A stretch of 54,954 nucleotides of DNA from Candidatus Poribacteria bacterium (lineage in GTDB: Bacteria; Poribacteria; WGA-4E; WGA-3G): positions 265,045 through 319,998 of the forward strand of contig JAPPFM010000002.1 in assembly GCA_028821605.1 (NCBI GenBank), in the 5' to 3' direction. The notes under the pieces are model-generated. The model saw nothing but the letters and a program-made list of their open reading frames with translations, did not search any database and was not told the origin of the DNA. A program made the translations under genes and the position numbers. Position 1 is the stretch's first letter. Every line of letters begins with the position of its first letter. This document shows, one piece after another, positions 31,199 through 37,102 of this stretch.

Positions 31199-34186
31199 TC
31201 AGAACGAATTGGCTACATCCATTTGCTCTTCAATTGAGATGTGGAACATGCCGCGATCGTAGGTTCCGGCGTAAAGCCGATTGTTACTGACAACGAGAAA
31301 TGCAATATGATTATTGGGGATATCTGGGGAAAGTAGTTCCCACTTGTGGTGAGAATCTAAGCGGTATGCGCCGCTATCACCGACACCGTAGATTGTAGTG
31401 CCATCTGTGGCGAATTTGTCTATGACGGTGTGCATCCGGTTTTTATCAGTGATGACTTGCCAGTGTTGTCCAGTATGTGAGATTAGGACGCCTTTGTCGG
31501 TTGCGATACAAACCATTGAACCTACGAAGGTTATCTCCTTGAAATACGTAAAGCGGATCGGCAGTGTTGATGTGATGTCTTTCCAAGAGTCGCCGCTGTC
31601 AAGGGATTGAAACAATTTTCCATTTGCTTTACCGAAGTAGGCGGTTTTACCTGAAACAGCCAATGCAGATACGATATTGATACCGACTAATCCTGTGTCG
31701 GTCCATTGGCGATTGCCAAGTTTCCATTTGAAAAGTTTCCGCTTGTATTGTGCGTAAAATGTCCGATCGCCGACAGCAAAGGCTCCAATGTGGGTGTATT
31801 TTTTGTTCATTAGTAGGTGTAATATATATGGTGAGGAACTGCCATTGTCTGGAATTTCCTCGGCTTCAAAATCGGGAACATTGTGAATGGGGATGAATTC
31901 ATCTCCAGCGGTGGATGTGCGGAAAATGCTCGGTTTGTTTTCCCGAATCGTAATGGCATAGAGGACATTATTGGCGATTGTTAGTCTTATATTTTTATAA
32001 AAATTGGTATCTAATTTGGATGTGTGCTCCCGGGTATTGAAGCGAAGACTGTGCCATGTCTCACCGCCATCAGTTGACTGGACGAGGTCTCTTCCGATCT
32101 GCATATAGAGTCTATGATTTAGTGCGGCCAAGTCATGCATTGAGGGACCTGTCATGCCGTTTACAAATGGGTGCCAGGACTCACCGGCATCAATTGTTCG
32201 GTTAATCCCGTATATGTCGGCTTTGTAAAATGTCCTTTCATCGATAGCCACCGCTGGAAGTCTCGGTGTATAAAGTGAATGGATGTTGGATCTAAGGGAG
32301 GTCCACGTTTTCCCGCCATCGCTGGATCGAAATTCGGTTACTCCGAGAACTAAGAGCGTCTTACCTACAGCCAAAATCTGTATAGCAGATTCCAAATTCA
32401 TAACTTGAGATTCATCCGTAGGTGTTATTTCAGTCCATGAGTCTCCAATATCTGCCGAGTGGAAGATTCTCTTTCGTGCGTATTCACCTATAGGTATTGA
32501 TGGATTTGGTTCATCGGTTTCTGGGAGAACAATATCAGGTACCGGCAAGGCGTAGTGGAAGATTCTTTTTGGTGCGTATTCACCTATAGGTATTGATGGA
32601 TTTGGTTCATCGGTTTCTGGGAGAATAATATCAGGTGCCATTCCGACATAGAGGTTGTTTTCGTCGACAGTCAAGGCGTAAACTGCACCAGATACGTTGG
32701 TGAGTAGTTGTTGCCAGTTGCTTGAACAGAGGCGATAGAGCCCCCGGTTTGTACCAGCAAATAAGGTTTTTCCGATTGCAGCGACTGTATAAACCCGTTT
32801 CCCTACCAATCCGTTGTTTAGAGGTTTCCAGTGCTGACCGGCATCGTTAGATTGGAAGACTCCTCTCTCTTGAAGCGCGAGATACAGTGTTATGCCTATT
32901 TGTGGATCGTGCTTTTGGATTGCCGCTGTGACGATGAGTCCGCTTGCGGTTCCCTTCGGACGCGGTCCAAGGGCGTTCCACGTTTCACCGGCATCTTCTG
33001 AAGCGAACACCTCATCAGTAGAGACAGTATAGAGGGTGCCTTGGTGTTCTGTGATAGGTATTCGGTACTGTCGGTTGGGAATATCGGCGTTAATAAGTAC
33101 CCATGTCGCGTCGGGTGTCAATCTATAGAGACCTGTTTTTGCAGCAGCGTAGATCGTTCCGTCAGCAGCTTCAAAGAGGTCATAGACAACGCTGCCTTTG
33201 GGACCGATTGACTGTATCCATTGTGGAGTGGAGAACTTGGCGATATCGTCCGATGCGTTTGTGGTGAGGGCGGTTTTCGAGGTTTGCATGCCTGCCCCGC
33301 TATTTTTACCGGGGATAATTGTTCTACCGATCTGATTCCGCACGGCGGGTTTTGCGACGATCTCAAGGTAGATAGGTTCATCAACGAGTTCAATGGTAGG
33401 TTCGGATTGTGCGTCAAAACTGTATGGCTTCTGAAACCGGAGGAGATATTGACCGCCGATGCCGAAGAGTATTACTAAGATGGTTGTGGCACCGAGAACT
33501 GCCCAAGGGAATAAGGGTTTCTTAGCGGGCGGCGTTGGTTTCAGGTCGGCAATGTGTCGCATGACGTTCTGAGTGAGATTGTCAGACAATTGCACACCGT
33601 TAAGCGTTTCCTGCAGGAGTGCTTCTTCCTGTTGTAGACGCTTGCGGGCGCGGCGAAGTCGACTCTTGATTGTATTCACTGATACGCCTAAGAATTTACC
33701 GATCTCTTTCGCCGTCATTTCGCCGAGATAGTAAAGCGTTACGACAGTGCGTTCACTTTCTGGGAGTTTGTGTAGGAGCGTTTTGGCGAGATTCTGTCGG
33801 TGATTTTTAATTTCAGTTTCACGTTGATACGACATATGATGATCGTAGGAAGCCTCTTCAATTTCTTCTTGGTGTGTGTCCTCTAACGATTGCATATTCA
33901 ACTTGTCCGTTTTGGCTTTATTTCGCTGTATCCAATTAATGCAGAGTCGATTCGCTATGACATACAGCCATCCATGAAATCGTTTTGGGTCTTCTAATGT
34001 CCCAAGCTTTTTGTAGACTTGGATAAAAGTGTCTTGGGTAATTTCCTCAGCGATATGAAAATCCCCAATTTTCCGCCATATAAGGGCATGAACACCCTTT
34101 TGGTGTTTCTGCATTAATATACTGAAAGCTTCATCGTCGCCTGACAAAATTCGGCGAATCAGTTGAACATTATCATCTACCATCAT
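31199..34186 (-). CDS. ECF sigma factor fused to a membrane helix and Asp-box beta-propeller
   Basis: 995 residues. Region 2 (about 10-95) shows FHIAEEITQDTFIQVYKKLG and FHGWLYVIANRLCINWIQRN. Region 4 (about 135-190) shows LPESERTVVTLYYLGEMTAK followed by EIGKFLGVSVNTIKSRLRRA. A membrane helix (FPWAVLGATTILVILFGIGG) lies at 226-249. The remaining ~740 residues form an extracytoplasmic propeller with at least seven Asp-box repeats, among them SEDAGETW, SNDAGQHW, SADIGDSW, SSDGGKTW, STDGGETW and SLDSGDSW. Residues about 512-575 are a recent 32-residue tandem duplication. The layout suggests a one-protein transmembrane sensor and sigma factor. RBS AGGGGA precedes the ATG. Confidence 0.85.
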   Translation of the reverse strand: MMVDDNVQLIRRILSGDDEAFSILMQKHQKGVHALIWRKIGDFHIAEEITQDTFIQVYKKLGTLEDPKRFHGWLYVIANRLCINWIQRNKAKTDKLNMQSLEDTHQEEIEEASYDHHMSYQRETEIKNHRQNLAKTLLHKLPESERTVVTLYYLGEMTAKEIGKFLGVSVNTIKSRLRRARKRLQQEEALLQETLNGVQLSDNLTQNVMRHIADLKPTPPAKKPLFPWAVLGATTILVILFGIGGQYLLRFQKPYSFDAQSEPTIELVDEPIYLEIVAKPAVRNQIGRTIIPGKNSGAGMQTSKTALTTNASDDIAKFSTPQWIQSIGPKGSVVYDLFEAADGTIYAAAKTGLYRLTPDATWVLINADIPNRQYRIPITEHQGTLYTVSTDEVFASEDAGETWNALGPRPKGTASGLIVTAAIQKHDPQIGITLYLALQERGVFQSNDAGQHWKPLNNGLVGKRVYTVAAIGKTLFAGTNRGLYRLCSSNWQQLLTNVSGAVYALTVDENNLYVGMAPDIILPETDEPNPSIPIGEYAPKRIFHYALPVPDIVLPETDEPNPSIPIGEYARKRIFHSADIGDSWTEITPTDESQVMNLESAIQILAVGKTLLVLGVTEFRSSDGGKTWTSLRSNIHSLYTPRLPAVAIDERTFYKADIYGINRTIDAGESWHPFVNGMTGPSMHDLAALNHRLYMQIGRDLVQSTDGGETWHSLRFNTREHTSKLDTNFYKNIRLTIANNVLYAITIRENKPSIFRTSTAGDEFIPIHNVPDFEAEEIPDNGSSSPYILHLLMNKKYTHIGAFAVGDRTFYAQYKRKLFKWKLGNRQWTDTGLVGINIVSALAVSGKTAYFGKANGKLFQSLDSGDSWKDITSTLPIRFTYFKEITFVGSMVCIATDKGVLISHTGQHWQVITDKNRMHTVIDKFATDGTTIYGVGDSGAYRLDSHHKWELLSPDIPNNHIAFLVVSNNRLYAGTYDRGMFHISIEEQMDVANSF

Positions 34187-34279: not shown

Positions 34280-34311
34280 TAAAGACACACTTTATTGCAA
34301 AAAGGGTGCAT
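34280..34311 (-). promoter_or_regulatory. Two-box ECF-type promoter candidate upstream of the sigma-propeller gene
   Basis: On the reverse strand ATGCACCCTTTT-N10-TGTGTCTTTA lies 94 nt upstream of the start at 34186. The same two boxes with identical 10-nt spacing occur at 37071-37102 upstream of A'. If TGCACCC is the -35 and TGTCTT the -10, the spacer is 16 nt, right for ECF sigma factors. Autoregulation is inferred. Confidence 0.6.
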
Positions 34312-34646
34312 TAAGATTAAAAAAACACAATTTTTCTCAAAACCGTTCTTTTTCTCCGAATTCTTTGGAGAACAAATTCTTAATGACAGTTGGTATCCGT
34401 TCATGATAACAATATCTTGATAGCACACCAATTGTGCAAACTTTAGTAGTAATTGTAGCATAAAACGCATTTGTTCTCTGAAATTTTTAAATTAGCATTT
34501 TGTTAAACATTTTCTTCTTTTGCCCTTTCCTGACCTAAATGGTGTCTTTAATTTTAAACAGTGTTGTATACCGACGTTTAAAATAGACATTATAATGATT
34601 TAATCGCAGGTGTTGGATACTCCCAAGGTCTGAAGTTTAAACGAAA

Positions 34647-34663
34647 GTTGTGCAACCCACAAC
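34647..34663 (-). terminator. Possible terminator hairpin after B'
   Basis: GTTGTG-N5-CACAAC forms a perfect hairpin about 45 nt after the B' stop. On the reverse strand it is followed by a T-rich stretch (TTTCGTTT). It could end the A'-B' transcript before the sigma-propeller gene. Confidence 0.4.
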
Positions 34664-34707
34664 AAGTTTCCATGACGAAATGGAATGTTTGGTGTGCCTT
34701 GGGGTTT

Positions 34708-35508
34708 CTATTCATTGGGTTCATAAATAAATTTTAGGAACGTTTTGTCCGTAGTAAACGCGTAGAGGATTCTATTAAAGATCCTTGGATTTTGGAGGGC
34801 GACCCGGAGGATACCTTCAGATTTCCCGTGTTTTTCAAACAAGGCTTGTATCCATCGCACATCAGCATCCATCAACTCAGATGTCAATCCCGTAAGCGGA
34901 AAATTGAAGACTTGCATTATCTGGGGGATGGTCGACATGTCAGGTTTCTCCTTTATTTCAATGCCGAAACGATACTTCATCATGGCTTGGAATGCTGGCG
35001 ACCTACCGAGTGGTCCGCCGCGTCGGGGACCTTTGGTGCGTAGATATTCCGGTGTATCACCACCTCGTTTTACTGCCTTGAAGATCCATTTTCCTGTTTC
35101 TTCATAATGAACGATGAAATGCTCAAGAGTCGTTACTTCATCGAGTGTTTGGACCCCAAATTGCTCGGTATAGTATGTGAGATATCGTTCCTTGGGCGGT
35201 AGTATTTCGTAGAGCGTACTGTCCACGATCTGTCCATCTTCGGTCACAATCTCTGCGAATTCCGGCGGCAGAGATGCATCTGGATAAGCTTTAATGAGGA
35301 AGTTTTTATATGTGTTACTTTTGGCGAGTTCGTTCAGCGTTTTCAACTCTGCATCGAGAAGTTCATTGGAAAACTCTTTTTTAAGGGTATCAAAAGTTTC
35401 CTTTTCAAGGGGCGTGAACTCGCGGAGTTCGTGTTCATAAGTCTCTGTGTATCCTTGCAAAGTGTGAATGCAGGAAAATAGGAGGCAAAGCAATAAGAAG
35501 CGTTTCAT
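34708..35508 (-). CDS. Gene B': secreted protein paralogous to the lipoprotein at 19207
   Basis: 266 residues. The N-terminus MKRFLLLCLLFSCIHTLQGY is a signal peptide; a Cys is present but the lipobox is poor. Residues about 34-75 (EKETFDTLKKEFSNELLDAE, then LKTLNELAKS) align with gene B. The middle (GGDTPEYLRTKGPRRGGPLG) is a basic loop absent from B. The C-terminal ALFEKHGKSEGILRVALQNP followed by RIFNRILYAF again matches B and ends with an aromatic segment. No known domain is recognised. It lies 195 nt after A' in the same direction, mirroring the A-B order at 17915-19992. Confidence 0.7.
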   Translation of the reverse strand: MKRFLLLCLLFSCIHTLQGYTETYEHELREFTPLEKETFDTLKKEFSNELLDAELKTLNELAKSNTYKNFLIKAYPDASLPPEFAEIVTEDGQIVDSTLYEILPPKERYLTYYTEQFGVQTLDEVTTLEHFIVHYEETGKWIFKAVKRGGDTPEYLRTKGPRRGGPLGRSPAFQAMMKYRFGIEIKEKPDMSTIPQIMQVFNFPLTGLTSELMDADVRWIQALFEKHGKSEGILRVALQNPRIFNRILYAFTTDKTFLKFIYEPNE

Positions 35509-35703
35509 AGTTGTAAGATTCCTTATTTTAGGGAGGTATTCTCCGTGGTTTGGGTAGTCGTTACTAATCTGTGTCGTGTCTATAGTGGACGATGGAATGG
35601 TTGTAACATTCTGCTTGTAGAGGTAAGTGTGTCGGTTGCGTATCTGATACCAACGGTACAGATAACAAGGGCAGCGAAGCAGCAGACAATGTAGAAAATG
35701 TGC

Positions 35704-36771
35704 TTATTTTTCATTTGCGTCTGTTTCCTTGCTCGGTTGGAGGAAGCGTTCGATGTGTATTGCTACCTCCGGGTCAGATTCTTTGAGCCTCTGGAGTCCT
35801 TCTTTGGGTCCGTATTGTGTCAAGGTTTGCATGGCAGTGGTGAACCGCTCCGGTGAAAAACGTTCACGGAGTGTTTTTTCAAAATCTGCGTTTGTGGATA
35901 AGTTGGGGACATCTGCGGAGATGCTCTTCGTGAGTTCTGCCTCAAGTGTCTCAGAGGATTGGGATATTGGTTCTATATCGGTCAGGGTTCTGGTATCCGC
36001 GCGTGGTGCAGAGGCGGTGTCAGTGCTTTCTTCGACGACATCGGTGGTACCGAATTCTGACGTGAAGATAGATGTCGTTGGAAGTGGTGCGATGTCTACC
36101 TCTGCCTCTGTGAATGTGAATTCTGAAAGGATACTGGCGGCGTTCTGACGGATATTTTCAACCCAGTCAAAGTCCCCGACATGACCATTGAATTGTTGAC
36201 GAGACCAGATATAATTCGATCTGTCCTCGTCCTGCCGCCAAAACGCTTGGAGAAGTCCCACGGTATCAAGTTCAGGATTCGCAAGTGCAAGTTCAGCAAT
36301 CTTTTTACGCATTTCGGGTTCATAATGGGCAGCATCCCCCACTGGAAACCTCTTGCGGAATTCTTTTTCCTGGAGGCTTCTACCAGAACTGAGCCCCTGT
36401 GATTCCAAGAAGTCCCACCAAGCTGTGAGATTCACACCAAATGTTCCCTCCTGACTTTTGAGATATTCAAGGTATTCGGGAGAGTTCAGAGCTTTTTGAA
36501 GTTTTTGGGTATAAGGATCACTATCATCTTGGAGGATACTGAGTAATACCTTGCTCTGTTCCGCCTTTTCGCCTATGGTAAGGGCACTCTCCTCTTGCGG
36601 CGGTGGGGATTCTTGCGCTGTTTCGGTAGTGCGTGGTTCAGGTGTGACGGCTTTGTATTTGTATATCACTGTCGGTGGCTTGTCTTTCAGTTGGGGGATA
36701 CCCCAGAGGAAAACACCAAGTGTGATGAGGATAGAAAGAGAACCGATGGCATAAATATGTCTTATCTTCAT
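35704..36771 (-). CDS. Gene A': membrane-anchored protein paralogous to interrupted gene A
   Basis: 355 residues. Residues 1-25 are a membrane anchor (MKIRHIYAIGSLSILITLGV) followed by a proline-rich linker. A helical region (about 60-200) includes LNSPEYLEYLKSQEGTFG and LTAWWDFLESQGLSSGRSL. An acidic, Ser/Thr-rich variable linker follows. The C-terminus LRERFSPERFTTAMQTLTQY, then GPKEGLQRLKESDPEV, matches the end of gene A. No stop interrupts this copy, which suggests that the full-length form is the functional one. The ATG at 36771 is chosen for its AGGAG 8 nt upstream; a longer frame adds 15 unconserved residues. Confidence 0.7.
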   Translation of the reverse strand: MKIRHIYAIGSLSILITLGVFLWGIPQLKDKPPTVIYKYKAVTPEPRTTETAQESPPPQEESALTIGEKAEQSKVLLSILQDDSDPYTQKLQKALNSPEYLEYLKSQEGTFGVNLTAWWDFLESQGLSSGRSLQEKEFRKRFPVGDAAHYEPEMRKKIAELALANPELDTVGLLQAFWRQDEDRSNYIWSRQQFNGHVGDFDWVENIRQNAASILSEFTFTEAEVDIAPLPTTSIFTSEFGTTDVVEESTDTASAPRADTRTLTDIEPISQSSETLEAELTKSISADVPNLSTNADFEKTLRERFSPERFTTAMQTLTQYGPKEGLQRLKESDPEVAIHIERFLQPSKETDANEK

Positions 36772-37070
36772 CTCATGAACTCCTGTTAAATTTCGGCGGT
36801 GTACCCGTATAGGCACACCAGTAGAATTATAGTGAATGAAAAACCTTTGGCACTAATTAAGTTCTGCGTTCCAGTGTGCACTCCAACAAGCGAAAGCGTT
36901 ATTCTGTGCATTTCTACCTTCGTTGGAGTTGCTGCCAGAGATATTACACGCCGTTTATGCAAAATAGACATAAGTGGGCCCGGAACCCAGTACCATAAAA
37001 TACTATCAATTTGGGGCACATATAGTGATGTTTTTTCGGCACCACTGTCCGATGTGCTCCCTTTATAACT

Positions 37071-37102
37071 TAAAGACACAGGTTTGATGGAAAAGGGTGC
37101 AT
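37071..37102 (-). promoter_or_regulatory. Two-box ECF-type promoter candidate upstream of A'
   Basis: The reverse strand reads ATGCACCCTTTT-N10-TGTGTCTTTA, identical in all 22 box positions to 34280-34311. It is oriented toward A' (start 36771), about 300 nt upstream. A shared regulator, most simply the sigma-propeller protein, is inferred. Confidence 0.6.

Follow-up and report, generated by a model that had tools for sequence, protein, structure and literature searches.

Autoregulation is standard among ECF sigma factors (PMC3817407), and the described systems closest to the locus reported here are ECFs that carry further domains. In SCO4117 (ECF52) and IutY (ECF243), a sigma domain, a transmembrane (TM) segment and an extracytoplasmic domain are combined in one protein; proteolytic release is known for IutY and has been proposed for ECF52 (PMC8999054). 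ECF57 and the WD40-fused ECFs of Planctomycetes contain a propeller-type extension carboxy-terminal of the ECF domain, and form expanded paralogue families (PMC8999054; PMC8567305). In ECF41, a promoter motif (TGTCACA-N16-CGTC) is shared by the sigma gene and a local target (PMC3426412). The locus described here recalls these systems in its layout: an ECF domain, a predicted TM segment and a propeller, presumed to be extracytoplasmic, are joined in one protein that belongs to an expanded paralogue family.

Poribacteria are uncultured and are dominant symbionts of sponges. Little is known of regulation in these bacteria, and sigma factors are not mentioned in the Poribacteria literature that we searched. 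In the literature searched, we likewise found no ECF-propeller fusion described for Poribacteria.

Organization of the locus

The window, by which we mean the whole stretch of DNA analysed, comprises 54,954 nt of Candidatus Poribacteria bacterium (assembly GCA_028821605.1, contig JAPPFM010000002.1, positions 265,045-319,998 of the forward strand); coordinates below are those of the window. The relevant elements lie on the minus strand in the order: a LamG-type gene (38167-37382), motif 2, A', a remnant of B, A, motif 1 and the sigma-propeller gene.

The sigma-propeller gene (31199-34186) encodes 995 residues with Pfam matches to Sigma70_r2, r4_2 and Sortilin-Vps10/BNR. Both Pfam and the structure model indicate sigma regions 2 (residues 24-90; 33917-34117) and 4 (residues 136-184; 33635-33781) only, together with a C-terminal domain. 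In the AlphaFold model (mean pLDDT 77.8), a helical sigma domain (residues 3-197) and an all-beta tandem propeller (residues 334-984; 31235-33187) are separated by a poorly predicted linker, in which the predicted TM segment (residues 225-243; 33458-33514; hydropathy 2.19) appears as a low-confidence helix. The best PDB matches of the propeller in a Foldseek search are GH74 xyloglucanases, which are themselves tandem propellers. The protein is therefore predicted, from the model, to consist of a cytoplasmic ECF sigma domain, a TM helix and a GH74-like tandem propeller that presumably acts as an extracytoplasmic sensor. A Pfam scan of the protein detected no zinc-finger anti-sigma domain, and the translated sigma domain contains a single cysteine, C82. 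The named relatives of the protein are from Poribacteria MAGs.

The presumed target operon starts with A' (35704-36771), the first main gene behind motif 2, which encodes 355 residues with an N-terminal TM helix and no Pfam domain; its structure model is poor (pLDDT 62), and a fold search with the model gave no match. B (35580-35714) is a 44-residue remnant of the gene for a membrane protein of ~105-116 residues that lies between A' and A in relatives. The third gene, A (34708-35508), encodes a secreted protein of 266 residues. The names A and A', carried over from the preliminary description, imply a kinship that we reject: the two proteins show no similarity and are not paralogues. The leader of ~300 nt between motif 2 and A' contains an open reading frame of 41 residues, MHRITLSLVGVHTGTQNLISAKGFSFTIILLVCLYGYTAEI, at 36786-36911 (minus strand), and an Rfam search of the leader gave no match.

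Two identical sites face the sigma-propeller gene and A'

The sequence ATGCACCCTTTT-N10-TGTGTCTTTA occurs on the minus (coding) strand at 34280-34311 (motif 1) and 37071-37102 (motif 2) with 0 mismatches. In motif 1, the -35 box ATGCACCCTTTT spans 34311-34300 and the -10 box TGTGTCTTTA spans 34289-34280; the corresponding boxes of motif 2 are at 37102-37091 and 37080-37071. The features on which the preliminary description had based its promoter proposal hold: the sites are identical at 22 of 22 box positions with equal N10 spacing, both face their minus-strand genes, TGCACCC and TGTCTT are separated by 16 nt on the coding strand, and the two spacers are unrelated. In pattern and spacing the sites have the hallmark of ECF promoters, namely a TG(A/C)AAC-like -35 box and a GTC-containing -10 box ~16 nt apart. 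The -10 box is 93 nt from the ATG of the sigma-propeller gene (34186) and ~300 nt from that of A' (36771).

Allowing up to 3 mismatches, the window contains no match beyond the two sites, and 100 shuffles gave none. The genome-wide search suggested by the preliminary description returned 6 matches at up to 3 mismatches, against 0 for a reversed control. Among relatives, the motif was found in 34 of 60 genomes, all of the same genus, with >120 matches listed against ~6 for the control. Two further signals were seen near these sites, neither of a kind that occurs above chance: a weak sigma-70-like match (36853-36826; 10/12) that is nearer to the start of A', and a weak terminator-like hairpin (34647-34663, minus strand) after gene A. 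The hairpin would fit a sigma gene that is transcribed separately.

A probable promoter type shared by most fused sigma genes

The Sigma70_r2 profile of Pfam has 82 matches in the genome. The 81 genes that were read out can be classified into 56 fused genes (at least 400 residues with an N-terminal sigma domain, called as simple open reading frames), 23 short classical ECFs and 2 of intermediate length. By hydropathy, a TM-like segment directly follows the sigma domain in 44 of the 56 fused proteins and in none of the 23 short ECFs. The propellers of the fused members include 22 of the VPS10 type and 9 of the WD40 type.

A de novo two-block EM search of the 300 nt preceding each of the 56 fused genes yielded the consensus TTATGCAACCTT-N12/13-cGCGTCAcTA, with a TGCAACC / GCGTC core and a log-likelihood of 426, compared with 103 for block-shuffled sequences. 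When sites were scored with a leave-one-out PWM (at least 12 bits, within 450 nt upstream), 41/56 fused genes were preceded by a site on the coding strand, whereas the opposite strand (0/56) and the gene interiors (0/56) gave none; the in-sample counts are 43, 0 and 0, respectively. Only 4 of the 23 short ECF genes have a scoring site, so that the match between fusion and promoter is imperfect. Within the window, motif 1 scores 27.2 bits and motif 2, which was outside the PWM training set, scores 24.0 bits; nothing else exceeds 13 bits, and the reversed window gave no match. The promoter reading of the preliminary description is supported, with the correction that the motif is not unique to this pair but is a variant of a promoter shared across the family.

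In addition, 11 fused genes sit at the end of an operon with a site before its first gene, which brings the assigned total to 53/56 and leaves 3/56 without a promoter; these operon-head assignments, which rely on the order and strand of the genes, carry less weight than the proximal sites. The genes ahead of the fused sigma gene in such operons encode PD40 propeller proteins, ABC-2 permeases, an ABC transporter, an M16-type peptidase and a thioredoxin-fold protein, along with several products that match no Pfam family. For 33 fused sigma genes of the same genus that were retrieved by protein, the coding strand carries a proximal site at 22 and the opposite strand at 2.

Repeated promoter copies were also observed elsewhere in the genome. 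At G000:C16:41000-47800 (L239), three successive PD40-type genes, each with its own near-identical ECF promoter, lie upstream of a sigma-fusion gene. At G000:C24:27000-33290 (L241), two promoter copies 650 nt apart have identical boxes and different spacers, a second case like the window pair.

Promoter bases covary with sigma residues at contact positions

The 53 sigma-promoter pairs were compared by Mantel tests on distances. Region 2 correlates with the -10 box (r = 0.374, P = 0.001) and not with the -35 box (r = -0.036), and region 4 correlates with the -35 box (r = 0.329, P = 0.001). With the other domain held constant, both correlations persist in partial tests (region 2 with -10, r = 0.301, P = 0.0005; region 4 with -35, r = 0.412, P = 0.0005), in comparison with 0.051 (P = 0.21) for region 4 with -10 and -0.264 for region 2 with -35.

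At the level of single residues, the top covarying positions of the whole domain are S175 for base -34, R178 for -32 and K174 for -31, all in the recognition helix of region 4. In region 2, covariation with the -10 box involves N84 and Q87, the latter being the top residue for position 2 of the box. The same top residues were obtained after redundancy weighting and pooling of other genomes. The recognition helix aligns without gaps to that of Bacillus subtilis SigW, with K174, S175 and R178 corresponding to SigW K170, T171 and H174, which touch G'-31, A-34 and T'-32/T'-33 in the crystal structure of SigW bound to its -35 element (PMC6713349). All three covarying -35 pairs are, therefore, known contacts.

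Several of these rules carry over to other genomes. In this genome, all 33 genes with K174 have C at -31, as do 27/27 in other genomes; T174 is paired with G at -31 in 4/5 and 6/6, respectively. Residue 178 predicts base -32 in 32 of 35 genes from other genomes, compared with 7/35 for the commonest base, in a replication set that is of the same genus, includes orthologues and was fetched via the motif itself for 13 of the 35; among the 22 genes fetched by protein alone the rule holds in 21, against a baseline of 2. The residue 87 rule held partly (15/22 versus 4/22). A rule linking residue 84 to -10 position 0 failed in other genomes (13/22 against a baseline of 14/22) and was discarded. Shared ancestry inflates such correlations, yet ancestry alone should not single out the contact residues from among 215. 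Comparison of sequences thus supports the view that these sigma factors use the boxes as promoters. The specific proposal that the window pair is an ECF -35/-10 element read by the sigma domain encoded next to it is supported by strand-specific occurrence, by covariation matched to the two sigma regions and by covariation at contact positions.

Which factor reads the two sites

The window sigma factor carries N84, Q87, K174, S175 and R178, a combination associated with ATGCACC and a -10 box of the TGTGTC type; both sites match this. The main competing explanation is that both sites are real ECF promoters and that A', or both genes, are read mainly by another fused sigma factor in a shared regulon. 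This applies in particular to the paralogue C48:60530, whose recognition residues and -35 and -10 letters are identical to those of the window sigma; moreover, the promoter of a PD40 operon at C2:251661, which lacks a sigma gene in cis, is of the C48 type. However, in PWM numbering, the spacing is 13, one base longer, in the promoter of C48:60530 and those of its relatives, and it is 12 at both window sites and in the orthologues of the window sigma. The window's own sigma factor is the likeliest reader on account of this shared spacing, and its gene lies directly beside both sites; we therefore consider it rather unlikely that another factor is the main reader, although C48:60530 may read the same boxes to some extent. 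The C2:251661 promoter (L110:998-1032) heads a run of five PD40-like genes, with no nearby gene in the Sigma70_r2 list, and this run may be a target in trans.

Two explanations dispense with a promoter altogether. Two-box motifs at fixed spacing can, in general, be bound by dimeric regulators, and the boxes might accordingly be operators of an ordinary transcription factor; they are not palindromic, however, and they are strictly oriented to genes (41/56 versus 0/56), have an ECF-like core (GTC) and covary separately with sigma regions 2 and 4, which makes this very improbable. A reading of the pair as a functionless duplicated repeat or mobile element deserves even less credence. Promoter copies at C50:205, C41:129 and C16 do have near-identical spacers and the look of tandem duplicates, but in the window neither the spacers nor the flanks match, so that the longer duplicated repeat named in the preliminary description as grounds for refutation is absent, and the arrangement recurs in orthologues beside other neighbour genes. 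Both sites are, then, very probably ECF promoters, judged by their sequence, read by the window's own sigma-propeller protein for autoregulation and for control of one adjacent target operon, A'-B-A.

The arrangement recurs with different presumed target genes

The promoter is kept before the sigma gene in the orthologues of G005 (with a degenerate -10 box), G009, G012, G016, G020, G026 and G030. The first five are 82-83% identical over the first 395 residues; those of G026 and G030 were reached through the motif, and their N-terminus looks nearly identical to that of the G012 protein. A further promoter copy precedes a neighbouring gene in 7/7 of these loci, and the gene differs: it is of the glycosyltransferase type in G005, G016 and G020, a PD40 propeller protein in G012, G026 and G030, and a protein of 616 residues with the appearance of an ABC transporter in G009 (the glycosyltransferase and PD40 types were assigned by Pfam for the G005 and G026 genes and by sequence likeness for those of G012, G016, G020 and G030). 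Two more orthologues lie at contig edges, one with only 137 nt upstream (G014) and one without the motif in 245 nt (G018).

In relatives, the A' homologues belong to A'-B-A operons that frequently have an STT3-like gene after them and that lack the motif. Conservation of the promoter together with A' is therefore rejected, and the assignment of a putative promoter to A' draws only on sequence and position in the window. Since the second-copy genes differ and the A'-B-A operons of relatives lack the motif, the cargo of the second promoter is lineage-specific, though the arrangement itself recurs. In some relatives (L199:1112-1426, L206:2671-3015, L208:2287-2595), a peptide of ~100 residues with a cysteine-containing C-terminus precedes A', and A is followed by the STT3-like membrane protein; this set of genes may constitute a secretion or glycosylation operon.

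Proposed mechanism and implications

We infer a scheme in which the propeller senses a ligand outside the membrane, probably a glycan or surface polymer, and this releases or unmasks the sigma domain, probably through regulated proteolytic cleavage at the TM segment. The sigma domain would then direct transcription of its own gene, as a positive feedback loop, and of a single adjacent target operon (A'-B-A in the window). The TM topology and the activation step are deduced in this scheme, and release by proteolysis is likely by analogy to ECF52 and ECF243. Taken together, it is highly likely that the two elements are promoters of the ECF type, recognized by RNA polymerase when it carries the sigma domain of the sigma-propeller encoded next to them; sensing, release and feedback would proceed as outlined.

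The balance tilts somewhat towards a broader view, in which each genome of this genus would contain dozens of one-protein switches that join sensor, membrane segment and sigma factor. Each would have a promoter variant co-evolved with its recognition helix and would control itself and a small neighbouring cargo operon that is exchangeable between strains, forming a large set of one-component sigma circuits that are partly insulated and whose residue-to-base code can be read. If the promoter reading is right, promoter sequence alone ties ~53 sensor-sigma proteins of this genome to the genes they control, and ligands and targets can be guessed. The paralogues and their promoters also make up an unusually rich table of residue-to-base preferences for ECFs, which could serve ECF promoter prediction and the construction of insulated sigma-promoter pairs.

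Comparison with known systems

The window family differs from each of its closest counterparts. Relative to ECF57, a TM segment precedes an extension of the VPS10/BNR/GH74 type, in place of the WD40 type that only 9 of the 56 paralogues match, and with C82 as its only cysteine the sigma domain lacks the reported cysteine pair linking sigma2 and sigma4. Unlike ECF52 and ECF243, the protein has no detected zinc-finger anti-sigma domain, a trait of ECF48, ECF52 and ECF53; its extension is a tandem propeller, and the genome encodes ~56 fused paralogues. ECF41 is similar in being a C-terminally extended ECF with its promoter before the sigma gene and/or an adjacent target and apparently few others (PMC3426412), but its extensions are small soluble SnoaL-type domains and the -35 box here, TGCACCC/TGCAACC, is different. 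The Bacteroides hybrid two-component glycan sensors BT4663 and BT4673 have periplasmic propeller domains that are among the Foldseek matches of the window propeller, at low TM-scores (0.2-0.3, rmsd ~20 A), and the output of the window protein is a sigma domain and not a kinase with an AraC-type regulator. Three features stand out as unusual against these systems: the propeller is VPS10/GH74-like and membrane-anchored, the paralogues are numerous, and almost all of them have a promoter that fits their own recognition residues.
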